Of a stretch of 23,189 bases of DNA, positions 1,595 to 22,536 are shown in pieces. The stretch is from a virus. Within the stretch, counting starts at the first letter, position 1, and each line of letters opens with the position of its first letter. The DNA is taken from positions 1-23,189 of IMG/VR virus record IMGVR_UViG_3300048029_000059; one strand, 5' to 3'. Both the position numbers and the translations under genes were made by a program. The notes under the pieces were generated by a model. It had not been told where the DNA came from. It saw only the letters and a list, made by a program, of their open reading frames with translations, and did no database searches.

Positions 1595-1689
1595 TTTTTC
1601 AACCTATATACTATGTTAATAGCTGTGTTTGCACAGACAGCTAGTAGTGTTAATATTTGTAAGAATATACTTATTATCTCAACTTCCAT
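1591..1689 (-). CDS. Tiny single-span membrane protein, 32 residues
   Basis: Read by hand. The protein starts MEVEIISIFLQILTLL and ends in a basic tail RLKK. Residues 5-22 form one hydrophobic segment, with acidic residues before and basic residues after, which predicts an N-out, C-in single-pass membrane peptide by the positive-inside rule. It follows the holin with a TAATG overlap and overlaps the next gene as ATGA. A membrane peptide directly after a holin could be an antiholin or accessory lysis protein, but no sequence feature proves this. Reality of the gene rests on the two tight overlaps and the well-formed TM segment. Confidence 0.65.
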   Translation of the reverse strand: MEVEIISIFLQILTLLAVCANTAINIVYRLKK

Positions 1690-2084
1690 TATTTAGTTAT
1701 ACCTTTTATCTTCTCTGCTGTACGTAATCCACCTAAACCAAGCATACCAAGTAGTACAGTCATAAGACTATCCATGTCAAACACTGGTAAAGCTGGTATG
1801 GGTACGTTAAAGTAAGCACAAACAAACATTGTAGCAGGTGCAAATACAAAGTGCCACCCCATTGCAGCAGCTAGTATCCAACCCAGAAAGGGTCTCCAAC
1901 CTGCAACAAACAGTGACCTGTGCTTGGCTTCTTCTTTGTTAATCTCTAGTTGACCTTTTGCTAACTCCTGTGCATGTTTCTCTGACATTGTTGCAATCTC
2001 ATGGGCAATCTTTTGCTTAGTATCTGCATCAGGGATAAACTTGTCTAACAGTGAAGCAACTGGTGCTATTAATGCTTGTATCAT
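1689..2084 (-). CDS. Holin, three-TM (gene-transfer-agent type)
   Basis: Probable holin, which forms inner-membrane lesions and lets endolysin reach the peptidoglycan at the end of infection. The 131-residue protein has a helical, charged N-terminal part (residues 10-55), then the landmark RSLFVAGWRPFLGW (56-69), which is characteristic of the holin family described from gene transfer agents of alphaproteobacteria. Hydrophobic segments follow at about 66-93 (probably two spans or one long one) and 105-120, and the tail is basic. It occupies the position of T7 holin gene 17.5, between the fibre genes and the terminase. The start overlaps the upstream 37-residue gene as ATGA and its stop overlaps the next start as TAATG. 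Family assignment is by recognised motif; no functional data are implied. Confidence 0.85.
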   Translation of the reverse strand: MIQALIAPVASLLDKFIPDADTKQKIAHEIATMSEKHAQELAKGQLEINKEEAKHRSLFVAGWRPFLGWILAAAMGWHFVFAPATMFVCAYFNVPIPALPVFDMDSLMTVLLGMLGLGGLRTAEKIKGITK

Positions 2085-8211: not shown

Positions 8212-11200
8212 TTAGTTAGCAAATTCATTAGCTGTAGCATTTATTATCTGCCTAGCTCCATATAAAGATTGATAAGGAAATATCCTTAAAGCTTTTCTCC
8301 ATTCAGATTCTGTAGCATCTTGGTCATCAAATAAGTTATTAATAGTTGAACCTCCATTAACTAACAAAGAAGCAATAGGAGGAGTTATAGCATAGGAGTT
8401 ACCATTTAGTACCCCTGAACTTAACTGAGCTATATAACTAAATATAGAAGTCATTCCTATTTGAGCCACAGCACCCTTAAGTAGGTTGCCTGTTTCCATG
8501 CGTTCTGCTACATACTCATTAGCATCACTACGTCCAGCAGCATTTAAATGTACTCTAGCTGTATACATCAGAGCACCCATACCCATAGCAGCAGTAAATA
8601 ACTTAGCTACTGCACCTGCATCTCCATTCATTGTTCTGACAGCTAAACGTTGAGTTTGTTGCTCCATAGATGAAAAGGTAAAGTTTAAAAACTGAAACAT
8701 TGACCTACCTATCTGAGTAGACTTTAACAATCTATTACTTGTAGATAAATCAGATTCCTGAACATTTGTTCTAGCATCTCTATGACCTATGTTAGCAAAA
8801 GCTTCTCTAACATCTTCATCCCACTTTTCAATGTTAAGATTTTTAACAGTTCCATTTGGATTCTTTGTTACAATGTTACGGTTGTTTAATGTTTGTACTA
8901 TTCTAGCACCCATTTCATCAGATATACCAAGCTGTTGTCTTTTAATCTTAGAGAAAGGTAACTTACCTTTTGCAGCAGCTAAAGCAAACTCATTAGTAAA
9001 GTTTATCATAGACATTCTACGTAAAGTCTGTGTAACACCTGTTAAACCAGATAGAAAGGCTACATGTTTTTGAGAAGCATAAGCAAACTTTTCTGTGGCT
9101 CTACCTATTTTGTTCCCTGTTGCAGTAGTTATAGTAGCTCCTACATCTTCTGAATCAAAACGTGTAACAGCTGTCCATTTACCTAAATCAACTTCTGCAC
9201 CTAACCCAAAAAGTTGTACTAATTCTTGAACTAAATTTGGGTCAGCATCTGCTGTACTTAGACTAGTCATAAGTTGTTTATATTGAGGAACAGACTTAAG
9301 TAAAGTCATAAAACTATATTCCATCATAACGTTAGTCAACTCCATTAAAGCTGACATACCTGACATACCCATGTTAACAGCAAAAGACCAAGCTCGTAAA
9401 GCTACGTTAAGGTCATGTACTGTTTGAGTTTCACTTCTGTTTCCTAATCTACCAGTGATACCATCATACATAAACTGTACTGCATCTAATTCTGCTTGAA
9501 ACTGGTCTTTTGTAAGGTTTCTTCCGTCTATGTCTTTTAGTATTTTACCTGTAACTAATTCAGAGAAATCAGTACCTTTTACGTTAGTGTTAATCCCATT
9601 TCTAGCTAAACCTATAGCACCTGACATTTGAAATATATAAGAGTTTACAAGCTGTTCACCATCTTCTTCTAGTAAATCAGTAAATCTTAAATCTTCTATA
9701 TCTCCGTTTTTATTAGTAGCTTTAATAACAGCACCTTCACTTAGAATTACACGAGACTGAGCACGTTTAAAAGATTTAGGTGTTTTAGATTGTGTAACAA
9801 GGTCTATAATATCATCTATATCTTCTTCAGCAAACTCACCTTTTAAGGCTGCCTCTAAGTCTTCTCTAACCATTGGGTTAGTATCTGTTATACCTGACTT
9901 CCTAAATTTAGCACTTATTATAGATTTAGTATAACCCCTAGCAAACTTTCTTATGTAGTCATTAACAGCATCAAAAAGTTCTTCGTCTGTCTTACCTTTT
10001 GTTTTACCTCTTTTACCTAATGTTTTTAAAACCTGTTCTTCTATATTAGGTTGTCCTCTACGTATAGCATCCTCAATCAAATCAACGATTACTTCGTCAT
10101 CAAATTTATCTCTAACGTTCTTAACTTTTAAGTCGTTAAATAAACGTGTTAAATAATTACGATTATCGTCTATTTGTTTTTTTGTAAGACCTACAACATC
10201 TGCTTTCACTCCTAAATAACCTAAATCATCTAGAACTTTTCTAGCTATTTCTCCTATCTTTGTTACTTCAGGAGCTACGTTTGTATCAATGCCTCTTAAA
10301 TAACGTGACAAAGCTGTATTAAATTCCTCTTCAGTTAAGCCTGTTCTCTTAATAAACTTAGACCTTTCTCTTGGAAGTATCCCTGCAAGTTGTGCACGGT
10401 ATTGACCTTGTAATCTGCCCATTACTTCTGTGACTGAACCTGCATTAGTAACTCTACTACTATTAGAAAAACCTGCTACGTTCATACCTAGAGTATTACC
10501 TGCCCATCTTACTGAACCCAAAGGAGAGTTCATCATTCTTGCACCTACTGATATTAGTTTACGTAAACCAAAAAGACTGTAACCAGCTTGTTTAGGTGTT
10601 AACTGCATCTCTTCAAGAGTAGGAGGAGTTGTGTGTCTATTAGTGTTAAAAGTTCTACCAGCTTCTGTGAAAGAAGGGTCACTTAGTTCTTTATCTATAA
10701 TTTTGTTAGCAAGTGTTCCTTCATTAAAGGCATCATAAAATAAACTTTCTGATGGTGTAAGTTTCTGACCTAACCTAAATTTATTATCAATAGTTGCACG
10801 TTGCCCTGCCTTTCTAAAAGCTGTTATACCTGCATTTAAACCACCACCTATAACTGCTCCTGCTCCTCCTGCTATAAGAACATCATTAAAATCTATGTTA
10901 TATCTAACATCATTTCTAATAGCTTCAAACGCAGCATTTTCACTTGCACCTACTAAAGCACCAATCTTAACGGCTCTTTTAACATCATAAGCTCTTTTGA
11001 CAACACCTGCAGTAAGAGCAGCTGCTCCTCCTATTGGAGTTGTTGTAGCTGAAGCTAAAGCAGTAGTACCAGCTATGATTGCCCATTCAGCTGGGTCAAA
11101 CATCATAGCAAATATTCTACCTGTAGTTCCCTTCCAACCTGCTGCATCTAAGTCTGCTAAGTTTTTCTGAGTAGCTAAGTTAATCTTTCGTTGCTTCATA

Positions 11201-11563: not shown

Positions 11564-14392
11564 TTATAATGATAGCTCAACATCACTTACAGCATTAGCC
11601 ATTTCAAAAGCACGTTCTTTAGTTTGTTTAGCCCATTTGTTTAAGACAACTTTACCATCTTTAGTTCTACTATACAACATTTCAAACTTAGCTTTAGCTA
11701 GAGCTTCTTCTTGTTGAGGAGAACCTACTTCATATTGTCCTGCTTCTTTAATAGCAGCTGTAAACTTTTTCCAAGTCTTTGGAATATTAGTTACACCTAA
11801 TTGATAACCCATACTAATGATAGCTGATTGTGCTTCTTCAGGTATGTTTCTAAAACCTTGTATTTCTTTGTCTAGATAGTTACCAATCTTCTGCACCTTT
11901 AACTTAAGAACTTGAGTAGCTTCTTCTTTTGTGACATTGTTAATGTCTTTAATCAAAGCTTTCTCATCATCTTCTAGAGCAGGTAAGTAGAAGCCAAAAC
12001 CTACTGATTTATTCTTACCATCTTTGTAAGGGGTACTAGAGAAACCTTCTTGAGTTGCTATCATATTAGCTGTTTTCTCTTCTATGTTACTACCTTCTAT
12101 AGTCATTTTATTTCCTATTGCTTGATTACTGGGCATGTTACTAGGTGTAAACTCACCTACTTGTGTTTCGTCTAAAGTAGAAGCACCTGCTGGTTTAATG
12201 ACATTTAAATCTCCACTGAATAAAGCTCTAATGTTATTAATAGCTGCTTCAGGACTTCCTTTAATGTATTCAATAAGGTCATCACCAAACTTTTTTACAT
12301 TCTCTGCTTCAGCTACAAAATCTTTTTTAGACTCAGTTGCTTTAATAATAGTATCACCTATTCCTTTTATTAAATTTAAAGATGCTTCAGGACTTCCAGC
12401 AATGTAGTCAACAAAATCATCACCAAATTTCTTAGGAGCACGTTCTCTTCGTTCATCACTGTCAAAGCTAATCAAAGATTCTACACTATTCTCAAGAGGT
12501 TCAGCTTCTGCTCTTGCTAAATCTTTTGCAACCATGTTATATAATATTTTAGGGTCTGATAGTATTTTAACTTTATCAAACATTCCTAATATATTTGTGA
12601 AATTTCCATCATTATCAGTTACTCTAATACCAACTTCTACTGGATTAATAGGGTTAGGTACTAAAGATATATCATAAGTACCTGCTTCCAAACCTTGTGT
12701 TGCTAGTATATGCTTTTGAAGTGCTGGATTATTTACAAGACTTTTATTAATCTTAGGAATAACTTCTTCAGGTTTTAAACCCATAGGTACATTTTGATAT
12801 AAATGAGGAAAACCATACTTAAAGTTTTTGTTTCCAGCAGATTCTATAATAGGATAATTCTTATTAACTATTGCTATAGCTTTTTCTATGGACGTTTTTT
12901 CATCATTACCTAAAGCTCTAAAATAACGAAAGTCTTCTATAGCTTCTTTGAATATTAAAGAAGAAGTAGGTAAATCATCTATAGCAGTCCCAAAGAAAGA
13001 CGTTAAATCATCTGTAACTTTCTTTGCTAAAGCTGTGGTCATCTCAGGCTCATTGTTTTTATCATAACCTTGTAAAATAGAAGCAGCTGATACATAATTA
13101 GCTTGGTTATAATCTACTTCTGTAGTGTAATCTTCTTCACTAAGAGGTTTTTCTGCTATAAATTGTGGTTGTTTAGCTTCTCTTACAATTAATAAATCAA
13201 GCCCTTCCATAAGTTTTTCTTCTTCAGGTTTAAGATAAGAACCTGTAGGAATACCAGCAGCTTTTAATATTTGATACTGTTGAAAACCTAATCTCAAAGC
13301 TTCGTTACTTTCTTCCGTGTTTGGAGTACCTCCTCGTATCTTATCTATAGTACTTTTAACAACGTTTGTCACTACCTCAGGAAGAATACCAGTTATTCTA
13401 TATTGGTCTGCTTGTTGTTTAGGATTTAATTTAGTAAAAGGAACATCTGTGCCATTAACATTTACAGTGCTTCTTAATAAACCTAAACTTAATTCATCTT
13501 GACTAGCTGTTATACCAAGTGTATTGACACGTGTTCCTTTGTTTATAGCTTCTTGTACTCTAAGTTGAACAGCTGCTCCTTTATTAGCTTTAGCTATAAA
13601 TGTGTCTCTCTTAGCTCGTAGTTCACTACCTTTATCTAAATTTTCTGAAGTATCTAATTGTTTAAGTTCTTCTAAAGCTGCTAGATAAATGTTATTAGGA
13701 TTACTTTCTTTAACATCGTCTGCTAAACCTAGAAGAATTTTATTAACTCTTTTATAATCAGGTTTACCATCAATAGTAGGAAAAGACTTTGCATGTGTAT
13801 CTACTAAATCTTTTGCTAACTCTACAGCTTTAATAGGGTTTTCTTTATTTAAAGTATCAAGAGCTATAAAGCTTTCTCTCATCTTAATGTTTTCTTGAGT
13901 TATAACATTAGATTTTTTAGCATCAGTAATATCAGAAAGAAACTTTATTTTACGTTCTTCCATATCAGCTTTATAAGTTTCAATGTGAAGTTCATCTACA
14001 CCCTTATCTCTTAATTTTTCTACATAATTAAAAGTATGGTTATCTATATCAGCTATGATTGCTTCATCAGGTGTATTAATATAAGCTTCTGGATTTCTTT
14101 TATAACTATTAACCATTTGAGAATGAGTTACTAAAGCCTCAGTCTTAACTTGATTTTGTTTTTTAGTAAAATTAAAATTCTCTATACGTCTTTCACGTTT
14201 TAGTTTTTCTTCTAATTGTTTATCTGCAGCTGCTTGAACAGCAGGAGTTATAGCATTCACAAATTGAGATAAAGGTGAAAGAGTGGTTTGTTCTTGGGCT
14301 GGTGGTACATAAGTATCAACAGGACTTGCAATAGGTTTAGTAGAGATACTACTTACATCTAGCCTTTGTACTGGAGTTCTTTTTTTTGCCAT
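11564..14392 (-). CDS. Internal virion protein C (gp15-like) fused to a C-terminal lysozyme domain
   Basis: Core protein of the ejection apparatus, equivalent to T7 gp15 but 942 residues against 747. Residues 1-about 640 are mostly helical, as in gp15. Two near-identical segments follow at 654-678 and 700-724 (pattern KKFGDDxxxYIxGSPEA). Residues about 765-935 resemble a GH24 muramidase of the T4-lysozyme type: ATQEGFSSTPYKDGKNKSVG places the catalytic Glu at 782 and Asp at 791, nine residues apart as in T4 lysozyme. Later come the typical helices with SAIISMGYQLGV and PKTWKKF. The usual Thr is Ser796, and the usual GxGH is GFGF. The domain probably opens peptidoglycan locally at genome entry. 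GAGGAA lies before the ATG. Confidence 0.88.
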   Translation of the reverse strand: MAKKRTPVQRLDVSSISTKPIASPVDTYVPPAQEQTTLSPLSQFVNAITPAVQAAADKQLEEKLKRERRIENFNFTKKQNQVKTEALVTHSQMVNSYKRNPEAYINTPDEAIIADIDNHTFNYVEKLRDKGVDELHIETYKADMEERKIKFLSDITDAKKSNVITQENIKMRESFIALDTLNKENPIKAVELAKDLVDTHAKSFPTIDGKPDYKRVNKILLGLADDVKESNPNNIYLAALEELKQLDTSENLDKGSELRAKRDTFIAKANKGAAVQLRVQEAINKGTRVNTLGITASQDELSLGLLRSTVNVNGTDVPFTKLNPKQQADQYRITGILPEVVTNVVKSTIDKIRGGTPNTEESNEALRLGFQQYQILKAAGIPTGSYLKPEEEKLMEGLDLLIVREAKQPQFIAEKPLSEEDYTTEVDYNQANYVSAASILQGYDKNNEPEMTTALAKKVTDDLTSFFGTAIDDLPTSSLIFKEAIEDFRYFRALGNDEKTSIEKAIAIVNKNYPIIESAGNKNFKYGFPHLYQNVPMGLKPEEVIPKINKSLVNNPALQKHILATQGLEAGTYDISLVPNPINPVEVGIRVTDNDGNFTNILGMFDKVKILSDPKILYNMVAKDLARAEAEPLENSVESLISFDSDERRERAPKKFGDDFVDYIAGSPEASLNLIKGIGDTIIKATESKKDFVAEAENVKKFGDDLIEYIKGSPEAAINNIRALFSGDLNVIKPAGASTLDETQVGEFTPSNMPSNQAIGNKMTIEGSNIEEKTANMIATQEGFSSTPYKDGKNKSVGFGFYLPALEDDEKALIKDINNVTKEEATQVLKLKVQKIGNYLDKEIQGFRNIPEEAQSAIISMGYQLGVTNIPKTWKKFTAAIKEAGQYEVGSPQQEEALAKAKFEMLYSRTKDGKVVLNKWAKQTKERAFEMANAVSDVELSL
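12221..12433 (-). repeat. Duplicated 25-residue unit in the gp15-like protein
   Basis: Residues 654-678 (bases 12359-12433) and 700-724 (12221-12295) share KKFGDD, then YI, then GSPEA, then a hydrophobic helix end. They are separated by 21 residues and lie just before the lysozyme domain. Confidence 0.8.
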
Positions 14393-14406
14393 GTGTTCCT
14401 CTTAAA

Positions 14407-15057
14407 TTAAAAGCCTGTTGTAACATCTATCATTGATTTATTTGAAGTAAACGATGGATTAAAAGTACCTGAACTAGGTAAAGAAGGTTCAGATATACCA
14501 CCACTAAACATCTTACTAATATTAATATCACCTTTTAAATCAATGCCAAACATTTTACCATCACCGTATTTAATATCTGCTGCTGCTGCTGCACCAATAC
14601 CAGTGACTACTGCACCAATTAAACTAGGTGGTTGACCTTGTTGCATAGAGTTAATACGGTTCATAGCTTGTGCATTAAGACCAGCTTTTTCTAGTTCAAC
14701 TTGTGTAAGGAGGTTCTTAATACTAGCATTATACTTTGAAACCCCTCTAAGTTCTCTGGCTTCTGTTAAAGCTATCTGCTGTTTAACTGATTTACCAGCT
14801 ACTCCTGCTTCACCTGCAGTTACCTTCTGTCGTTCTTTTGTTTCTAAAGCTTTGATAGCTAAAGCCATCTTATCTTCTGCAACAGCCTCAGACTCTTGTA
14901 TAGCTCGTTGGTTAAGAGATTGAATCTTTAAGTCACGTGCAGCTACTGCAGCAATCCTATTAGCTTCGTATCTTGCTTGCTGTTCTCTAGCTGCTTTTCT
15001 TTGCTCAAGAAAACCTAAAGCTGATTGCCCAATACTGAGCATGGTCATGGGTTCCAT
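14407..15057 (-). CDS. Internal virion protein B (gp14-like)
   Basis: Core protein of the T7 gp14 type, ejected early and thought to form the outer-membrane pore. The 216 residues compare with 196 in T7. It starts with a small hydrophobic-amphipathic segment (MTMLSIGQSALGFLEQ). A long alanine-, glutamine- and charge-rich helix follows (residues 15-140), and a glycine- and alanine-rich segment LIGAVVTGIGAAAAADIKYG sits near 160, which could insert into membrane. The C-terminal part is Ser- and Gly-rich. Position between gp13-like and gp15-like genes is the main support. The ribosome binding site GAGGA lies at the end of the upstream gene, one base away from coupling. Confidence 0.85.
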   Translation of the reverse strand: MEPMTMLSIGQSALGFLEQRKAAREQQARYEANRIAAVAARDLKIQSLNQRAIQESEAVAEDKMALAIKALETKERQKVTAGEAGVAGKSVKQQIALTEARELRGVSKYNASIKNLLTQVELEKAGLNAQAMNRINSMQQGQPPSLIGAVVTGIGAAAAADIKYGDGKMFGIDLKGDINISKMFSGGISEPSLPSSGTFNPSFTSNKSMIDVTTGF

Positions 15058-15058
15058 T

Positions 15059-15514
15059 TTATATCCTCACAAATTCTAAGAAGGGTTTATCACCTTCACC
15101 ATATTTATCATGCTTTTTAATAAAAGTAAAACCTAAAAACTTTAACCATTTTATAGATAAAGTATAGTCTGCATCAACTGCATTAGTTAAAATAGCATAT
15201 TTTTTATTTAATTGTTGTGTTACTTTTTTAGACTGTCTTAGAAAAGGTAACCATACCTTTGTAATAGCAGGAGTACTAAGTAGCCATATACATCCAACCA
15301 TGTCAGACTGTCTGGCTACTCCATATATACCTGCTATCTCGTCTGTCTTTTTTACTAGAAATGTCCAACATTCTTCTGATATATCAAAACCTGTTTGTAG
15401 AGCTTCTTTAGTACTACCATGAGAAGCTACTACTTCTTCTTTATCTTCAGGTCTAAGATTGTTAACCAAGTAATCTATATCTTCTTGAATACTTTGTCTA
15501 ACATAAACTTCCAT
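15059..15514 (-). CDS. Internal virion protein A (gp13-like), GNAT fold
   Basis: Equivalent of T7 gp13, a small protein required for morphogenesis of the head core. The 151 residues (138 in T7) show a GNAT-acetyltransferase-like layout: MEVYVRQSIQEDIDYLVNNL at the start, the strand-rich centre WTFLVKKTDEIAGIYGVAR, and the helical end WLKFLGFTFIKKHDKYG typical of the last acetyltransferase elements. The Q/RxxGxG/A acetyl-CoA loop is not clear (the region reads LPFLRQSKKVTQQLNKKYA), so catalysis is doubtful, as for T7 gp13 itself. The start overlaps the stop of gp12 as TAATG with AGGAG upstream, showing coupling to the tail gene. Confidence 0.88.
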   Translation of the reverse strand: MEVYVRQSIQEDIDYLVNNLRPEDKEEVVASHGSTKEALQTGFDISEECWTFLVKKTDEIAGIYGVARQSDMVGCIWLLSTPAITKVWLPFLRQSKKVTQQLNKKYAILTNAVDADYTLSIKWLKFLGFTFIKKHDKYGEGDKPFLEFVRI

Positions 15515-17856
15515 TAGAGTCTCCTAGAACGTAATACAAAGAACCCTTCCCATTCAGCTGATTGAAAGACACAAGGAAAGTGACTAGAACTTTTTAGTAC
15601 GATGCTTGTTTCATCACCATGACCTAGTACTCCAAAACGATAAGTACCTGAGTCAATACCAGCTTGGTTTAGAATGTTAGAAGCAGCACCTACAATACGT
15701 CCTGTAAAGTTTCTTACATAAGGAGTACGTTTAGAATGTGTTACTTCTGCTTGGAAGAAACCTGTGTTACTATAAACAACTGCATAGTTTCTTATATGTA
15801 GTTTACCTGTCGTTATAGCTTTGTCACCACTTTTAACAACTGGTTCAGAGAATTGATATTTAAATTCAAAAGGTACACCTGCATAGACTACTTCACTATT
15901 AGCTAGTTTACCTGCTACAGCACTTAAGTCTATAATCTTACCTGTCTGGTCTATATAAATTACACCAGCATCAGTATAAGGTATAGTTGTTAAACCACTT
16001 GTTTCTAGTTGTACTCTTCTATCTAAGTGTATACTAAACTTATTAGTAGTATAGTTAGTAGCATCATCTACAGATAAATTAATTCTTTCTAGATATAAAT
16101 CATTACCTCTTTTTATCAGTAAAGTTATATCAGCACGGTTAAAAGAAACACCTATAACATCACCACTAAATGTCCAACGTGACCAAGAGGCTTGTAGCTT
16201 TTCTCTACCTCTCCAGTAATATCTATATACATATATAGCCTGTGGGTCATTATCTGTTTGTACGAGTATCATATCTTCATTAGAAGAAGCTTCTATGTTT
16301 ATGACTTCTCCATCTAGATACTCAGGTACATGTGCTGTAACCTCTGTAGCATCGTTAGTGTCTGTGTCAGTGTCTACAAAGTATTCCCATAAGCCAGACC
16401 ATGCTCCTCTCTTAGAAGCAAAGTAAACAAACTTACCTACCTGTGCTGGTTTAGCTCTTAGTGAAGCCTCAAACTCTGTGGTGTTAGCAATGTTAACAGT
16501 CTCAGGTGTTAGTACTGGGTCAGCAGTAAGTTTAAACTGTGTTAAATCTGAGAACAATAGTAAAGCTTCGTTAAAAGGTACAGCATGTTTAAGTATGCTA
16601 ACCTTGTTAGACGAGACTGCTACATCAATAGGGTCACTGTCTACTATAGTTAATACTGATTTACGAAAGAAGTCAAAGCTTGTAAATTCACCTGCTCTAG
16701 CAAAGATAACATTCTCATCAGCTAGTACACCTAGTCTATTACGATGGAAGAATATATCACTTAGAGTAAAACCTACAAAAGAAGGATAAGAGTTTGTGTC
16801 ATCATCACCTACAGTTCTTTCATCATATGTAACAGGGTCAAACTGAAAGTTACCATTGGCTAACTTAGTTAACTTGTGTGGCATTGTAGAAGCATTTAAC
16901 TGGGTAAGAATGTTAGGCTCTAATGTTTCTTTCCATACTTCTTCATCTGTAAACTTTACATAGTAATCATCTTGAGCTTTTTGATTATCACCTGATACTT
17001 TAATAGTATAATTAACTGGTGCTTCTACAGGTAACTTTTTAAAGTCAGCTGTCTCATCTTTAAATACAAGTAGATGGTCTCCACCATGAGAGTCTCCTAC
17101 TTCTACTTGGAAGTCAGTGCTATTTGTAGATTGAATATGTAAGACGTTACCATACTGTGTAACTGTTAAACCTGATACAGCACTACCATCAGTTATATTC
17201 TCGTAGTAAGTTGTATTAACAGCAGTTCCAGAAAAAGTATTTAAGTTAGTAGCAATCAAATCTGTTGATGCACCACGTTCTGCATTCTGTGTCTCAGAAG
17301 TTGTGTCTTGTGTTGAAGACTTTGTTGCAAATTCTACAGTACTAGTATTACCACCTTTGGTTAATACTACACGATATGTTGAAGAGTAGTCAGCTTGTTT
17401 AACATATACTAAAGCTTCTGGATTACGACTTGAAGAAGTAGCAGTTCCTTTAGCTACAATAGTATTCTTGTTAACAATAAAAGTAGAGTCTGCTATTGAT
17501 ACAGCTGCTAATTCTTTGTTAGGGTCAGTTAGACCACTTAAGTAAGAAGCAGCATTATTAGTTACGGTTTTAGATACACCATCTTTGTCAAACACCCTTA
17601 TAGTACCTGCAGTATCTACTACCATAGAATAAAATTCATTCTCATCTCTACGAATAGTATGTATAAAAGCTTTATCTAAGTTAGAGATTGTACCTAAGTT
17701 AGCTATGTGTGAAGAACTAGGACGTTTAGATAATCCTGTTACAACATTAGACAAACCATTCTCTTGTAGTTCTGCTTGAGTACTAAGCCTTAAAGATGGT
17801 GGTTGTTGTGATACCCCATTTATAAGATTTGGGATAGATTGACTGATGAGTGCCAT
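15514..17856 (-). CDS. Tail tubular protein B (gp12-like nozzle)
   Basis: Tail nozzle protein that extends the tail below the gp11 ring and touches the fibres. At 780 residues it is close to T7 gp12 (794). The N-terminal signature IPNLINGVSQQPPSLRL is diagnostic of this family, followed by LQENGLSNVVTGLSKRP. The rest is beta-rich, in agreement with a beta-propeller fold, and includes FHRNRLGVLADENVIFARAG near the middle and SRWTFSGDVIGVSF later. The C-terminal part ends FFVLRSRRL. The start overlaps the stop of gp11 as TAATG with GGAG upstream. Together with gp11 it forms the tail, and no truncation or frameshift is visible. Confidence 0.95.
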   Translation of the reverse strand: MALISQSIPNLINGVSQQPPSLRLSTQAELQENGLSNVVTGLSKRPSSSHIANLGTISNLDKAFIHTIRRDENEFYSMVVDTAGTIRVFDKDGVSKTVTNNAASYLSGLTDPNKELAAVSIADSTFIVNKNTIVAKGTATSSSRNPEALVYVKQADYSSTYRVVLTKGGNTSTVEFATKSSTQDTTSETQNAERGASTDLIATNLNTFSGTAVNTTYYENITDGSAVSGLTVTQYGNVLHIQSTNSTDFQVEVGDSHGGDHLLVFKDETADFKKLPVEAPVNYTIKVSGDNQKAQDDYYVKFTDEEVWKETLEPNILTQLNASTMPHKLTKLANGNFQFDPVTYDERTVGDDDTNSYPSFVGFTLSDIFFHRNRLGVLADENVIFARAGEFTSFDFFRKSVLTIVDSDPIDVAVSSNKVSILKHAVPFNEALLLFSDLTQFKLTADPVLTPETVNIANTTEFEASLRAKPAQVGKFVYFASKRGAWSGLWEYFVDTDTDTNDATEVTAHVPEYLDGEVINIEASSNEDMILVQTDNDPQAIYVYRYYWRGREKLQASWSRWTFSGDVIGVSFNRADITLLIKRGNDLYLERINLSVDDATNYTTNKFSIHLDRRVQLETSGLTTIPYTDAGVIYIDQTGKIIDLSAVAGKLANSEVVYAGVPFEFKYQFSEPVVKSGDKAITTGKLHIRNYAVVYSNTGFFQAEVTHSKRTPYVRNFTGRIVGAASNILNQAGIDSGTYRFGVLGHGDETSIVLKSSSHFPCVFQSAEWEGFFVLRSRRL

Positions 17857-18440
17857 TAAAGTGTTCTCCGTCCCTGTCTGTCGATGATAGCATATGTGTC
17901 ATAATTGTCAAAGATATTGTTATCTTCTGTTATTTGGTCAAACTCTTTTAATTGTAGTAATGCACTCTGCTCATCTCTTAGTTGAAATTCATGTAATGTA
18001 CCTGAACCTACTACCCTGTCTTGGAAGACTCTAGTAGCACGTAGTACGATATATCTCTTAGCTACCTCAGGTAAGTCATCAAAGTCTAACTGTACTATTA
18101 CATCTAAATATGTATTAGTCCCTATGTTAAACGTGTGGTTCTTCTTGTCATACATTTTTAAACCACGTTGTACTAAGTCAGGACTCTGTGGTGCAAGTGT
18201 AGCATCTGCTCTTAATATATTATTAGGTAGAATTATTTCACCATCTGTACTTTGAGCAAAGCTTTTGTTTAATTCTTTGTTGAAGTGCCAACCCATAGAT
18301 TGTACTTCTCTGTCTATTGTGTTTAATATTGTTTCAGCTATCTCTGCTTCTATCAATCCAGATGACAGACTACTTACTGGTGCTTCTCCAATAGCAGATA
18401 ACATAGTATTGACTGCATCTAGTTGTGTTGTTCCTGCCAT
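17856..18440 (-). CDS. Tail tubular protein A (gp11-like adaptor)
   Basis: Head-to-tail adaptor that forms a dodecameric ring under the portal and carries the nozzle and fibres. The 194 residues match T7 gp11 (196). Family hallmarks include TQLDAVNTMLSAIGEAPV at residues 4-21, then the helix with IDREVQSMGWHFN, the strand IILPNNILRADA, and the region LPEVAKRYIVLRATRVFQDR near 130. The C-terminus ends in the basic RQGRRTL. An AGGAG ribosome binding site precedes the ATG. It overlaps gp12 by one base of TAATG, so the two tail proteins are likely made in a fixed ratio. Confidence 0.95.
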   Translation of the reverse strand: MAGTTQLDAVNTMLSAIGEAPVSSLSSGLIEAEIAETILNTIDREVQSMGWHFNKELNKSFAQSTDGEIILPNNILRADATLAPQSPDLVQRGLKMYDKKNHTFNIGTNTYLDVIVQLDFDDLPEVAKRYIVLRATRVFQDRVVGSGTLHEFQLRDEQSALLQLKEFDQITEDNNIFDNYDTYAIIDRQGRRTL

Positions 18441-18449
18441 TGCATTCTC

Positions 18450-18707
18450 CTATGCTTTCCATTTAGTTTTATTAGCCCAGTAAGCTGCAGATGTCTCACC
18501 CTTTTTAATATTCTTTCTATGTCTATCTTTAAAAGCTTTACGTTGTTTTGGGTTTTGATTAGTCTTAGCACCTTGTTCACCAAACCTAATCATCTTAGGC
18601 TTGTCTTGAGTTCCTATTAATACAGCATGTGACTTTGTTGAATGACTTGGAGTACGTTTAGGTATGCGTAAACCACTAAAGGTTTCTCCCCTATACTCTA
18701 TACTCAT
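18450..18707 (-). CDS. Small basic protein with a repeated marine-phage domain, 85 residues
   Basis: Hypothetical protein of 85 residues. The C-terminal half (about 40-84) reads IRFGEQGAKTNQNPKQRKAF then KDRHRKNIKKGETSAAYWANK. I recognise this basic 'IRFG..GA......R.KAFK.RH.KNI..G..SAAYWA.K.KW' pattern as a domain recurring in marine phages and some other viruses, with no known function. The N-terminal half contains RIPKRTPSHSTKSHAVLIG. The Arg- and Lys-rich content suggests nucleic-acid binding. It overlaps the upstream 52-residue gene as ATGA. It is unusual to have two such genes between capsid and gp11; in T7 this interval holds only the terminator region. Confidence 0.82.
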   Translation of the reverse strand: MSIEYRGETFSGLRIPKRTPSHSTKSHAVLIGTQDKPKMIRFGEQGAKTNQNPKQRKAFKDRHRKNIKKGETSAAYWANKTKWKA

Positions 18708-18862
18708 TTCTTTTTCTTTCCATACTTAGCCATTATAGCAGCTACTTGTTTCTTAGGTTTACCACCAAAGGACATCTTCTTACCAGTTTCTTTGGCTTCT
18801 TTTTTAGCTTTAGCTACACCTTCTTTAGTATACTTATATTTCTTTCCACCTACTTCTGGCAT
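18704..18862 (-). CDS. Lysine-rich small protein, 52 residues
   Basis: Read by hand. The protein starts MPEVGGKKYKYTKEG and ends GKPKKQVAAIMAKYGKKKK. Over a third of the residues are lysine and there is almost no acid in the C-terminal half, which contains a short motif GKPKKQVAAIMAKYG that could form a helix. This suggests DNA binding or condensation, or a decoration of the capsid interior. A good ribosome binding site GGAG lies 6 bases before the ATG, and it is the first gene after the terminator that follows the capsid gene. Its stop overlaps the ATG of the next gene as ATGA. Similar lysine-rich 50-residue proteins occur beside capsid genes in marine phages. Confidence 0.8.
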   Translation of the reverse strand: MPEVGGKKYKYTKEGVAKAKKEAKETGKKMSFGGKPKKQVAAIMAKYGKKKK

Positions 18863-18872
18863 AATACACTCC

Positions 18873-18908
18873 AATAAAAATAGAGAGAGGCTCTAGAAAC
18901 CTCTCCCT
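18873..18908 (-). terminator. Rho-independent terminator after the major capsid gene
   Basis: In the transcribed direction a 9-base stem (AGGGAGAGG with CCTCTCTCT, one G-U pair) with a 9-base loop TTTCTAGAG is followed by ATTTTTATT. It lies 10 bases after the capsid stop codon. This is the site where T7 has its T-phi terminator, so it probably lowers expression of tail genes relative to capsid. The ribosome binding site of the next gene follows the T-run directly. Confidence 0.8.
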
Positions 18909-18918
18909 GTTATTATAA

Positions 18919-20034
18919 TTAAACTTCAAGTAATCCAATACAAGCAGCAGGACGTAATACGTTATGTCCCATTGCATACTTGGCTACCATTAGTGTACCT
19001 TGTCTATTGATTTGGTACTCTGATTCCATACCTAAGTCTAGTAGCTTAACAGTAGCTACAGCTTCAGGTGTAAAGATAAAGCCTCTCATCTTAGAAGCAA
19101 TAGCCACCATGTCTGCACCATCTACAGCAGCAGTTGGTAAGTCATAGTGAGTAGTTCTACCTGAACCAGCAGTGTTAGCTAGTGGAGCATTGTCAGAAGT
19201 CTTACCTTCGTTAGCATCACCTGTAGTAAAGTTTACATATAGGTTAGATACTTTAGCATGGTTAGACATAATGACAGGCATTCCAGCAATCATAGGAACA
19301 GTAGCTCCTGCAAGATTACCGTTACCACCAAAGTCTTTATTCATATAAGTTAGCTTTGAACCGTCTGAAACATCTAGTAATGCGTAGTACTGGTCTGGAG
19401 CAAGAGCCACCACAGCACTGCTATGGTCAACGTTCTTGATATCAAACTCTTTCTTTGCATCAAAGATAGCTTTAGCTAGTTTAGCAGGGTCTATAGAATC
19501 TGCAGTAGCAGTACCAATAGTTACGTTATCAGTAAAGTCTTCTTCATCAAAGTCTTTATATCCTTGAACAAGACCTGCTGCTCTAGTTGCATTAGTTGAT
19601 AATGCAGCTTTGGTTAACATTCTTGCAACGTTTCTATCAGCTTCATTAGCCAATGCAATACCAGCTTCTTTAGAGTAGATGCTTCTTACATCGTAATGAT
19701 TCATAGCCTCATCAATGTTAGCAATGAACTGACTAGAGATGAGCAAGTCATCAATAGTTACAATTCTCTCACTAGCTCTGATGTTGCCACCTGTAATTTC
19801 ATTCCCAGGGGTTAGGTATTCAGCTGATGCTCTACCTGTCATAGGAAATGATGCAGATTTACCCTTACTAATTGTACGAGTTCTCACTTTGTCCATTAGG
19901 ACTTTCTTTTCTTCAAATGCAGTTAGGACTTCCCCAGCATATAGCTTGAGGAACAGGTCTCTAACGTCACCTGTATTATTAGTTTGACCCTGAAAGCTTA
20001 CGGTGTAAGCAGGGTTTGAAGCAGCTTGTGCCAT
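18919..20034 (-). CDS. Major capsid protein (gp10-like)
   Basis: Main shell protein with the HK97 fold expected for T7-like phages; 371 residues, close to T7 gp10A (345). Recognised family features are FLKLYAGEVLTAFEEKKVL near residue 28, ISKGKSASFPMTGRASAEYL near 55, and IDDLLISSQFIANIDEAMNH near 95. Later come VVALAPDQYYALLD, and GMPVIMSNHAKVSN near 250. It ends IGLLEV. There is no sign of a frameshifted second form like gp10B. The ribosome binding site AAGAGGT lies 9 bases before the ATG and overlaps the stop of a short leader ORF. The gene is isolated by hairpins upstream and a terminator downstream, as expected for the most abundant protein. Confidence 0.96.
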   Translation of the reverse strand: MAQAASNPAYTVSFQGQTNNTGDVRDLFLKLYAGEVLTAFEEKKVLMDKVRTRTISKGKSASFPMTGRASAEYLTPGNEITGGNIRASERIVTIDDLLISSQFIANIDEAMNHYDVRSIYSKEAGIALANEADRNVARMLTKAALSTNATRAAGLVQGYKDFDEEDFTDNVTIGTATADSIDPAKLAKAIFDAKKEFDIKNVDHSSAVVALAPDQYYALLDVSDGSKLTYMNKDFGGNGNLAGATVPMIAGMPVIMSNHAKVSNLYVNFTTGDANEGKTSDNAPLANTAGSGRTTHYDLPTAAVDGADMVAIASKMRGFIFTPEAVATVKLLDLGMESEYQINRQGTLMVAKYAMGHNVLRPAACIGLLEV

Positions 20035-20048
20035 TTTTTAATTACCTC

Positions 20049-20084
20049 TTAGTAGTTAAGTTGAGTTGAAATTACACTCAGCAT
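20049..20084 (-). CDS. Possible 11-residue leader peptide before the capsid gene
   Basis: The ORF MLSVISTQLNY is preceded by AGGA 7 bases upstream and ends in TAA within TACTAAGAGG, so its stop touches the ribosome binding site of the capsid gene. Such an arrangement can couple translation or keep the capsid start open. Only the layout supports it; the peptide itself has no recognisable function. Confidence 0.35.
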   Translation of the reverse strand: MLSVISTQLNY

Positions 20085-20160
20085 TTCTACATCCTTTCTC
20101 CAAGATTGTCCCTCGCAAGGGGTCAGGGGTAATCGTTTGTCTTTAGCTTAGTGTGTAGGA

Positions 20161-20189
20161 ATGATATCAGTTCCTTTTAAATACACCAA
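20161..20189 (-). promoter_or_regulatory. Possible sigma70-type promoter before the capsid gene
   Basis: TTGGTG (bases 20184-20189) and TATCAT (20161-20166) are separated by exactly 17 bases. The -10 box matches 5 of 6 consensus bases, the -35 only the TTG. Transcription would start near 20154, giving a leader of about 120 bases. The -35 box lies within the long hairpin. In an AT-rich genome such matches arise easily. Confidence 0.25.
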
Positions 20190-20212
20190 GTTAATCGTGT
20201 ACTTAAAAGGAA
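20171..20212 (-). other. Long RNA hairpin upstream of the capsid gene
   Basis: In the minus-strand transcript TTCCTTTTAAGTACAC pairs with GTGTATTTAAAAGGAA across a 10-base loop: 16 base pairs, with one G-U. On the plus strand the same position would be an A-C mismatch, which shows that the structure is selected in the minus-strand RNA. It may be an RNase III processing site or an mRNA stabiliser, as T7 transcripts carry at several places. Confidence 0.7.
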
Positions 20213-20231
20213 GGGGGAATACTCCCCCAAC
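20208..20231 (-). terminator. Possible rho-independent terminator after the scaffold gene
   Basis: GGGGGA pairs with TCCCCC over a 4-base loop GTAT (bases 20213-20228), followed by TTCCTTTT. Outer AGG and CCT can add three pairs beyond a TT/TT internal loop. The T-rich tail is at the same time the left arm of the next, longer hairpin, so the two structures compete. Confidence 0.5.
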
Positions 20232-20244
20232 CTGAACAACAATA

Positions 20245-20994
20245 TTAGAACAGACTTGACCTTGCTAACTTATTAGCTACCTCTTGTCTGTAGGCAGGGT
20301 CATTTGCGTATCTAGGGTCTGCCATTGCAGCAGTCATTTGTGCTGTACTTTCAAATTTCCCACCTGAAGCTCCAGAACTATTAGTACCTTGTATAAGGTT
20401 TGGTTCTGCTTCAGAACGATAACGTGCAAACATCCCTTGAACAGCAAGTTCAATCATATTTTTATCTTGCGTATTCATTGTTGCGTTAAAGGCATCTATC
20501 TCATGTTCAGGTAAGTTTTCAGAAGCCCAGTTTATCATACCAGCATACTGTTCTTCTCCACCTGTCAATGAGAATACACCTTGTTTAGTGGATTCAGCAA
20601 GAGCATCTTGTCCTGCTATCCAAGAGTCTACCATAGACTGAGGAAAACCTGCTTCTTCTAAAGCTTGATAAGCTTCCTCTGATAGTGTACCAGTATCAGC
20701 ATACTCTTCTTGGAATGCTGAGAAATCTAAACCTCTATCATCTAGAAGTTCAGCAACTTCAGAGGGATTTTCAGTAGGGGATACGTCTGTTTCCTCTGTA
20801 GTTTCTTTAGGCTGACCAAGCTTTGATTCTAAAGATGCGTAAGCTTTAGCCATATCTTCTGGACTTTTAAACTTTTCAGGTAGCCATTCAGGACGTTCAT
20901 CTACCTCTTCTACTCTTTCTCTGTCAAGCATAGCTTGTTGGTGCTCTTCAGACTCTGGAGCTTCTGGTTGAAAAGTATTAATTGAATCTGCCAT
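20245..20994 (-). CDS. Scaffolding / capsid assembly protein (gp9-like)
   Basis: Scaffold that directs assembly of the procapsid and leaves before DNA packaging. The 249 residues are somewhat fewer than T7 gp9 (307). The composition is right for the family: strongly acidic with many Glu, Gln and Ser, and the N-terminal block RPEWLPEKFKSPEDMAKAYA (residues 37-56), followed by SLESKLG. This 'PEWLPEKFKSxEDLAKAYxELExKLG' signature is typical of podophage capsid assembly proteins. The C-terminal end with MADPRYANDPAYRQEVANKL probably contacts the capsid protein. It lies between portal and capsid genes. The ribosome binding site GAAGGA is formed by the last codons of the portal gene. Confidence 0.93.
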   Translation of the reverse strand: MADSINTFQPEAPESEEHQQAMLDRERVEEVDERPEWLPEKFKSPEDMAKAYASLESKLGQPKETTEETDVSPTENPSEVAELLDDRGLDFSAFQEEYADTGTLSEEAYQALEEAGFPQSMVDSWIAGQDALAESTKQGVFSLTGGEEQYAGMINWASENLPEHEIDAFNATMNTQDKNMIELAVQGMFARYRSEAEPNLIQGTNSSGASGGKFESTAQMTAAMADPRYANDPAYRQEVANKLARSSLF

Positions 20995-21000
20995 GTATTA

Positions 21001-22536
21001 TTATCCTTCTTCTACAGCAGCCTTTGCTAAATTAGGTGCAGCACTTTGTGCCATACCTGCTACTGCTTGTTGTTCTAACATTGCTTGTTGTTGTTGTTGC
21101 ATCATCATCTGTTCTTGCATCTTCTGCTCTTCAGATTTAATTAAGCCAGAAGTATCAATTCCTAATGATGCTGCTAGTCTGTCTATATAATCATTTACAT
21201 TCATCTCACTAGCAATAATCTCTTGACCTAATGGCTGTAGATATTGCAAGAATGTAGCTAATTTGTTTAAGTCTTGTCCACGTCCTAGTGCTTCAATACC
21301 TGTAACTACTGTAGGCTTGATGCTATCCTTAGGCATACGTGGCATTTTACCTTGCTTCGTTAATGAATCAAGTAGTAAGTTTATTAAGGGTAACTGAAAC
21401 TCTTGTGATAGTATAGAGTATACACCACCTAAAGAAGTCTCTAGTTCTTGTGCCATGAAACGTATCTCTTCTGCTGTAACACGTTCTGCCTGTCTTTGTA
21501 CACTAGTGTTTAACAAGAAGGCTGCACTTAATCTATCGTTAATCATCCTCATAGTTTCTAATGCTACACGAAAGTCACTAGCTTTTTGTACTTGTAATGT
21601 TGAAACGTCATTAACATCACCTGCTATGAAAGCACCATTAGGAGCTTTAGCTAGACTACTAGACTTTGTTGTACCATTGGGACGTACAAGAAATAATACC
21701 TTAGAAGAAGCAGCTGAACCTTGTACGATAGACTGAGTTAAAGCTTCTAAACTACGTAGGTCACCTAAGTATTCTTCTATAAAACCTCTACCATAATCCT
21801 CACCATCAATACGTATGAACCGTAATGGTATATAAGGGTTTTGGTCTTTCTTAAACATGCCTCGTGAGTTAGGTACTTCTATACCTGCTACCTCTTGGTA
21901 TACTTCCCACCCTTTATCAACTAGACATACCTTAGTATACAAGTCATAGTTCTTTACAGGTGAGTCTGACTCAGGTAATAATACCTTTACTGACTCAGGT
22001 AAGTTTAAGACATTAAGACTTTCCTTAGTAATAACCTCAAGTAGGTTACCCATTGTATCACGTTTAGTAACATAACGGTCAGGTCTGTACACCTTCATAC
22101 CACCTTCTTTAGGCATGTACACTAGTGAGTTACCTGTTACTATAAGGAGTTTAAGGGCTTCAAAAGCTGGTACTCTAATAGCTTTAGACTCTATCTCTGC
22201 CATAGCTGCACGTTCAATACGTGCTAGTCCTTCTTCAACTTGACCTCTGTTATCACCAGCTATAGCTTGTAAATCAAAGTCATCAATAGTTAAACGAAAG
22301 AAAGGACTGTTAGGTGGTAGTAGTGCAAGTAGTAATTTAGATGCTAAGTTATTTACACCTCTTGCTCCAATACCTTGATAAGGTGTAGGATATATAGACG
22401 AACTACTATGTCCTTCCTCTGGTAAAAGAGTAGGTATAGTTAGTTTAGCAGCTTCACGTCCTCTCTCAAGGAACGTATCTCGTTCACTTTCAAGTTGACC
22501 ATAACGTTTAGCCACACTTCCTGTTTCCATTTCCAT
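21001..22536 (-). CDS. Portal / head-tail connector protein (gp8-like)
   Basis: Dodecameric portal through which DNA enters and leaves the head. The 511 residues match T7 gp8 (536). Characteristic segments are RYGQLESERDTFLERGREAA near the start, RGVNNLASKLLLALLPPNSP and FFRLTID (residues about 59-85), IVTGNSLVYMPKEGG near 150, RFIRIDGEDYGRGFIEEYLGD near 240, IVQGSAASSKVLFLV, and ERVTAEEIRFMAQELE near 355. The C-terminal 45 residues are rich in Gln and Met (QEQMMMQQQQQAMLEQQA), a low-complexity tail. A second ATG lies two codons downstream. The start ATG has GGAA upstream, provided by the Lys-Glu codons at the end of the previous gene. Confidence 0.95.
   Translation of the reverse strand: MEMETGSVAKRYGQLESERDTFLERGREAAKLTIPTLLPEEGHSSSSIYPTPYQGIGARGVNNLASKLLLALLPPNSPFFRLTIDDFDLQAIAGDNRGQVEEGLARIERAAMAEIESKAIRVPAFEALKLLIVTGNSLVYMPKEGGMKVYRPDRYVTKRDTMGNLLEVITKESLNVLNLPESVKVLLPESDSPVKNYDLYTKVCLVDKGWEVYQEVAGIEVPNSRGMFKKDQNPYIPLRFIRIDGEDYGRGFIEEYLGDLRSLEALTQSIVQGSAASSKVLFLVRPNGTTKSSSLAKAPNGAFIAGDVNDVSTLQVQKASDFRVALETMRMINDRLSAAFLLNTSVQRQAERVTAEEIRFMAQELETSLGGVYSILSQEFQLPLINLLLDSLTKQGKMPRMPKDSIKPTVVTGIEALGRGQDLNKLATFLQYLQPLGQEIIASEMNVNDYIDRLAASLGIDTSGLIKSEEQKMQEQMMMQQQQQAMLEQQAVAGMAQSAAPNLAKAAVEEG

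Follow-up and report, generated by a model that had tools for sequence, protein, structure and literature searches.

A lysozyme domain at the C-terminus of a gp15-like ejection protein in an uncultured T7-type virus, and a putative exchangeable enzyme slot in its relatives

The window analysed here is a 23,189-base record of an uncultured virus, itself a fragment, whose minus strand carries a structural gene cluster of the T7 type. The protein in the gp15 position of this cluster ends in a domain of the GH24/T4-lysozyme type that retains the catalytic residues of its family, and the adjacent gp16-like protein lacks the SLT segment of T7; muramidase activity is predicted for the domain on the basis of its sequence and modelled structure. 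Very probably, a T7-type ejection machine here carries its virion-associated lysozyme as a C-terminal fusion to the gp15 equivalent, which would be packaged in the core, ejected and assembled into a tunnel, where the lysozyme would cut glycan locally. Taken alone, the window is a highly diverged further instance of a published arrangement, and so widens the range of known cases without establishing a new principle. The part that we judge worth pursuing is the apparently exchangeable slot for one or two enzymes that is seen at the same place in its relatives.

The features on which this reading is based are collected in Table 1. Following the direction of transcription, the gp15-like ORF has a PF24072 gene upstream and a PHROG 342 gene downstream, which gives the gene order gp14-gp15-gp16. 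Tail fibre genes are also part of the minus-strand structural cluster.

Table 1. Features of the window, with positions counted from its first base
Feature	Position	Strand	Evidence or remark
Capsid gene	18919-20034	-	closest isolates ~40% identical
Tail tube gene		-	PF17212
780-aa protein in gp12 position	15514-17856	-	
Internal virion protein	15059-15514	-	phrog_308, E 4e-38; weak similarity to T7 gp13 (PF11090, E 0.011)
gp14-like ejection protein	14407-15057	-	PF24072 T7_gp14, E 9.6e-18
gp15-like ejection (core/tunnel) protein, 942 aa	11564-14392	-	between gp14-like and gp16-like genes; body fold
Linker from tunnel body to lysozyme, aa ~640-770	12083-12475	-	low to medium model confidence; repeat pair
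Approximate mosaic border	12142-12150		blastn blocks and per-domain identities; relatives L005, L006, L007, L012
GH24/T4-lysozyme-type domain, aa ~771-942	11567-12082	-	PF00959, PDB profile matches, Foldseek, hhalign
Glu782 codon, equivalent of T4 Glu11	12047-12049	-	invariant in 21 homologues
Asp791 codon, equivalent of T4 Asp20	12020-12022	-	invariant in 21 homologues
Ser796 codon at T4 Thr26 position, SVGxG motif	12005-12007	-	Ser in 20/21 homologues
gp15-like stop codon	11564-11566	-	
gp16-like ejection protein without N-terminal SLT, 1111 aa	8212-11547	-	PHROG 342, E 3e-100
Holin gene	1689-2084		

When the whole gp15-like protein is searched against Pfam, PF00959 (Phage_lysozyme) matches residues 781-872 with an E-value of 2.9e-6 and 28 bits, and the isolated domain matches the same family at E 2.4e-7. 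Across both searches, the scores range from 28 to 31.6 bits, and the curated Pfam cut-off for this family is 22.3 bits. The match is not a chance hit, because a profile built from 21 homologous domains finds T4 lysozymes among the PDB sequences (from E 1.3e-5, the best match being a lysozyme-like designed protein at E 7.6e-6), and because a Foldseek search with the predicted gp15 model agrees (T4 lysozyme, probability 1.00, target TM ~0.63). An earlier note, made from the letters of this DNA, had proposed that the gp15-like protein ends in a GH24-like lysozyme domain with Glu782 and Asp791, and both the family and the predicted lysozyme fold are borne out by these searches. Its range for the domain, 11573-12100, was right as to location, and the borders have been corrected as given in Table 1.

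Glu782 and Asp791 are nine residues apart and do not vary in any of the 21 aligned homologous domains. At the position of T4 Thr26, the window has Ser796, as do 20 of the 21 homologues in having Ser, and the remaining one (L066) has Ala. A Thr is common as the third residue of the triad in GH24/PF00959 proteins, and the Pfam definition does not demand it. We have not treated Ser796 as disqualifying for membership in this group, because Ser is likewise found there in SP6 gp36 and in phiKMV gp36C, an active domain. Both of these proteins can be aligned with the window's lysozyme family by hhalign (SP6 gp36, E 1.5e-6; phiKMV gp36C, E 4e-7 with 26% identity over 127 columns), and the SVGxG motif is read in each alignment. 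The phiKMV gp36C domain has been reported to be active in vitro (PMC5380687).

These residues also bear on whether the domain could be a catalytically dead relic with a remaining role in virion-core packing. Such a role would be compatible with the Ser, or in one relative the Ala, at the Thr26 equivalent, and with the ejectosome of phage PhiM1, whose lysozyme-like domains shape a structural groove that putative DNA follows (PMC11440229). However, neither the catalytic Glu nor the catalytic Asp varies among 21 diverged sequences, the SVGxG motif is common to SP6 gp36 and active phiKMV gp36C, and the presence of other enzyme classes at the same spot in relatives argues for selection on catalysis. 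Moreover, the differences between the window's lysozyme domain and those of relatives fall mostly on third codon positions (6, 5 and 31 for the three positions against L004), as would be expected for a constrained protein. We therefore consider a dead relic most improbable.

The AlphaFold model of the entire gp15-like protein has a mean pLDDT of 75.7, with values of about 90 in the lysozyme core. For the gp15 body, the best PDB match found by Foldseek is the T7 core protein 9jyy_G (E 2.1e-3, probability 0.99, 677 columns), at a low TM, and the modelling moderately supports a T7 gp15 fold. This likeness is seen by fold alone, given that hhalign of the body against the T7 gp15 sequence was negative. 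A profile of the whole gp15 alignment likewise found nothing among PDB sequences. Homologues of T7 gp15 are assigned by size and synteny, and sequence similarity between them is not expected (PMC8954989). In the BFVD library of viral models, the best match is a full-length protein named 'Lysozyme' from Erwinia phage vB_EamP-S2. The lysozyme is preceded by a linker of ~100 or more residues with low to moderate predicted order (pLDDT 26-74). Within this linker lies a 60-nt direct repeat (12236-12295 and 12374-12433), whose copies are 80% identical and encode a duplicated KKFGDDxxxYIxGSPEA segment. A repeat pair resembling this duplication is also present in one relative (L032).

The gp16-like protein comprises 1111 residues, compared with 1318 in T7 gp16, and so is 207 residues shorter, while the gp15-like protein is 195 residues longer than its T7 counterpart, as the earlier note had estimated. 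From residue 32 onward it aligns with PHROG 342, but it enters this profile at position 208, whereas T7 gp16 enters at position 4. The SLT domain of T7 gp16 occupies residues 15-127 (E 1.7e-31), and Pfam SLT (PF01464) was found neither in the window nor in any of 21 diverse gp16 homologues of its relatives. Late entry into PHROG 342 is likewise seen for SP6 (position 206), K1-5 (162), phiKMV (168) and PhiM1 (192), and because all of these alignments start late, absence of the N-terminal segment is a common property of the tested phages that have a lysozyme on gp15. The periplasmic tunnel of T7 is made of gp15; residues 1-156 of gp16 are seated on this tunnel as wings that bear the transglycosylase, and residues 157-228 of gp16 constitute a 'molecular tape' that binds gp15 (PMC8954989). 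The N-terminal segment is missing in its entirety from the gp16 relatives, so that the equivalent of this tape may also be lacking in part or completely.

From the sizes of the two proteins, it had been proposed that the wall-cutting domain moved from gp16 to gp15. The layout and the difference in enzyme class (GH24 rather than SLT) stand, but we reject a transfer of the domain as originally worded, since SLT and GH24 belong to separate families and the comparison revealed neither an intermediate nor a direction. A related expectation, that an enzyme on gp15 always goes with its absence from gp16, holds to the extent that no T7-type SLT occurs in any tested phage with a gp15 enzyme. As a strict either/or rule it fails, because both proteins of PhiM1 bear enzyme-like domains and because no wall enzyme was detected on gp15 or gp16 of five relatives (L060, L073, L074, L076 and L081). 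In four of these (L060, L073, L074 and L076), gp15 is about the size of T7 gp15 or slightly larger or smaller, and gp16 is without SLT.

Most likely, and by analogy with T7, SP6, phiKMV and PhiM1, this protein is ejected, takes part in assembling the tunnel and cuts the wall locally. The gp15-like protein would be packed into the core of the head, pass out through the tail and refold as a periplasmic tunnel. The GH24 domain at its C-terminus, held by a flexible linker, would then hydrolyse nearby glycan strands of the peptidoglycan to let the tunnel pass, taking over the job that the SLT performs at the front of T7 gp16. If there are six gp15 copies per tunnel, as inferred from T7, their enzymes should be able to reach the surrounding wall.

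A search of IMG/VR with a gp16 profile returned 78 loci (designated by L numbers), and architectures were counted over 51 distinct gp16 rows. The gp15 body is homologous in every C-terminal architecture for which sufficient body sequence is available. The gp15 C-terminus carries GH24 plus CHAP in 18 rows and GH24 alone in 12, while a module that we provisionally call GH23-like is followed by CHAP in six rows and stands alone in another six. GH24 is joined to an unassigned module in two rows, one row has an unassigned module alone, and no module was detected in five. In a single row of the 51 (L032), GH24 is encoded by a separate 179-aa ORF directly after gp15.

Loci in which GH24 is followed by a CHAP/NlpC-P60 module on one gp15 include L043, L017, L019, L025 and L065, among others. 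In the CHAP module, Cys53 and His121 (alignment numbering) are invariant in 15 of 15 sequences, matches to PF05257 reach E 4e-7, and Foldseek leads to MepS and other NlpC/P60 proteins; the module thus combines the catalytic Cys and His with a predicted papain-like fold. The GH23-like module (for example in L067, L055, L059 and L050) stands in the place of GH24 and has an SLT-like motif (HES..GT / GPARG.MQ.EP) with an invariant Glu. It matches PF18013 weakly (E 0.03 to 0.05) and gives a weak hhalign match to the T7 SLT, and no clear match was obtained against PDB sequences and folds. When this module alone served as the search seed, nearly all of its occurrences were again at the C-terminal end of gp15.

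For the extra modules of L057/L062 and L026/L031, the label 'colM' was considered on account of a colicin-M-like DxYDFN motif, and was dropped because the two pairs are dissimilar to each other and have no PDB or Pfam support. The module at L057:5350-5913, which carries this motif, shows similarity (E 1.8e-9) to the end of a PHROG that bears the name endolysin. The one at L031:3746-4417 is a further C-terminal gp15 module without a family, and is not similar to that of L057. The only match in bacterial or archaeal genomes is L126, a single-cell genome labelled Candidatus Poseidoniales archaeon, wherein a GH24+CHAP gp15 lies in a T7-type ejection cluster. Given that Poseidoniales archaea are not known to have peptidoglycan, L126 is most likely co-sorted virus DNA.

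Relatives of the modules also exist as free-standing genes in cultured marine phages, namely CHAP in CRP-804, CRP-403 and CRP-118 and the GH23-like module in MEP301, which suggests endolysin-like genes as the source of the gp15 C-terminal modules. The same observation could be taken to mean that the window's domain is a lysis endolysin, synthesised within a structural protein and set free at a late stage for cell lysis, particularly as the free CHAP genes lie downstream of tail genes in the manner of endolysins, and as a Pfam scan of the 23-kb record revealed no other PF00959 match despite its holin gene. However, the domain is fused in frame to the ejection protein in nearly all loci, and precedents with the same layout are virion enzymes. 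The window is also a fragment, and relatives with larger contigs (L044 and L060) have separate small PF00959 lysozyme ORFs, so the lysozyme on gp15 is not necessarily the one used for lysis. An endolysin role is accordingly very unlikely in our judgement, and a virion enzyme is the reading that we retain.

Across the 78 related loci, sequence comparison indicates that the C-terminus of gp15 acts as a slot for exchangeable enzymes. We lean towards a slot with two positions, a glycan cutter (GH24 or GH23-like) and then an optional CHAP/NlpC-P60 peptide cutter, which would be filled by recombination with endolysin-like modules. During entry, a single ejected protein could then cut the glycan bonds as well as the peptide bonds of the wall, which is presumably Gram-negative. 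Such putative dual cutting on a single ejection protein may be new; full-text searches of the open-access literature found no earlier report of a CHAP-on-gp15 arrangement. According to a 2017 review, every two-domain virion lysin known at that time was from a phage infecting Gram-positive bacteria (PMC5380687).

Pairwise comparisons reveal how module and body are related. L005 has 97% DNA identity to the window over 14181-21489, yet its gp15 body is only 33% identical while its GH24 domain is 93% identical, the border lying near 12142. A mosaic border in the same place is found in L006, L007 and L012, with the enzyme side common with the window and the body side diverged. The opposite holds for L002, whose gp15 body is 94% identical and whose lysozyme is 76% identical, and whose gp15 ORF continues into the start of a CHAP module. 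In two pairs, L016/L017 and L005/L039, the bodies are 97% identical over the first 640 residues, with CHAP in one member and without it in the other. The modules recombine INDEPENDENTLY: as judged from these identities, the C-terminal enzyme modules and the gp15 body are shown to have been exchanged independently.

A sharp difference in identity between body and domain, in data that are all metagenomic, might also arise if an assembly error had joined an unrelated lysozyme to gp15. Yet the same fusion recurs in dozens of contigs from different samples, the window-like form is 99.5% identical in DNA in another contig, and cultured phages provide precedents, so that the likelihood of a chimeric ORF is next to negligible and we take the fusion as genuine.

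On a tree of 51 gp16 proteins, the C-terminal architecture of gp15 changes at least 17 times, compared with 26 or more times for shuffled labels, with at least nine changes in CHAP presence and at least six in glycosidase class. Because of this difference, the architecture is, on this tree, inherited yet labile, although recombination of gp16, and not gain or loss, may account for some of the changes. Separately, in L005, L006, L008 and L012 the gp15 body (12142-14181) and a patch in the middle of gp16 (9841-10684) have strongly diverged together, while flanking structural genes are up to 97% identical in DNA to the window. It is possible that these two stretches are a co-exchanged cassette of interacting regions.

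A labile enzyme site set against a conserved, SLT-less gp16 amounts to an evolutionary experiment on where wall cutting is attached. The survey allows enzyme class, and single or dual composition, to be tested against host wall chemistry, and the gp15 position to be tested against the gp16 position. The natural pairs L016/L017 and L005/L039 are good reagents for such tests.

A lysozyme on gp15 is not in itself new; it is a widespread arrangement that has been published for SP6, K1-5, phiKMV and PhiM1. A 2022 review notes that the gp15-like proteins of K1E and K1-5 hold the lysozyme activity that in T7 resides on gp16, and names this arrangement swapping of functional domains (PMC8954989). SP6 gp36 and phiKMV gp36 have been tabulated as virion lysozymes, the domain of the latter being named C-terminal (PMC5380687). 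In the 2024 cryo-EM study of the PhiM1 ejectosome, a lysozyme-like domain (Gly718-Ser903) is located on the gp15 equivalent, OEP, and a second, endolysin-like domain lies inside the gp16 equivalent (PMC11440229). Among the phages that we scanned, Pfam detected SLT in T7 gp16 only, and Phage_lysozyme only in the gp15 equivalents of SP6 and K1-5.

The window shares with T7 the three-gene ejection module and the fold of the gp15 body, but T7 has its SLT transglycosylase at the N-terminus of gp16 and no enzyme on gp15. In the marine Autographiviridae Pelagibacter phage HTVC120P and MedDCM-OCT-S42-C7, a lysozyme-superfamily domain is likewise present in the ejection cluster, but it is of the Pesticin type (E ~1e-39) and forms the N-terminal part of an additional protein located between gp15 and gp16 (L090:3500-5581 and L091:3691-5598, respectively). 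This additional protein is perhaps a split gp16. PhiM1 of Pectobacterium (OEP/TEP) resembles the window in its lysozyme-like domain on the gp15 equivalent and differs in its additional endolysin-like domain on the gp16 equivalent; no profile similarity was detected between the OEP lysozyme-like region and the window family. SP6 gp36 and K1-5 gp35 have PF00959 near the C-terminus of the gp15 equivalent and an adjacent gp16 equivalent without SLT, as in the window, but extend ~70 residues beyond the Pfam match. phiKMV gp36 also has a C-terminal lysozyme domain on the gp15 equivalent, with gp37 lacking SLT, although, unlike the window's, its domain is missed by Pfam. The SP6 and phiKMV proteins belong to PHROG 4290 ('lysozyme domain-containing protein') and PHROG 2083 ('internal virion lysozyme motif'), respectively, and the window family matches neither. 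As read from its sequence, the layout of the window is nevertheless that of SP6, phiKMV and PhiM1, with a predicted lysozyme near the C-terminus of gp15 and a gp16 free of the T7-type SLT.
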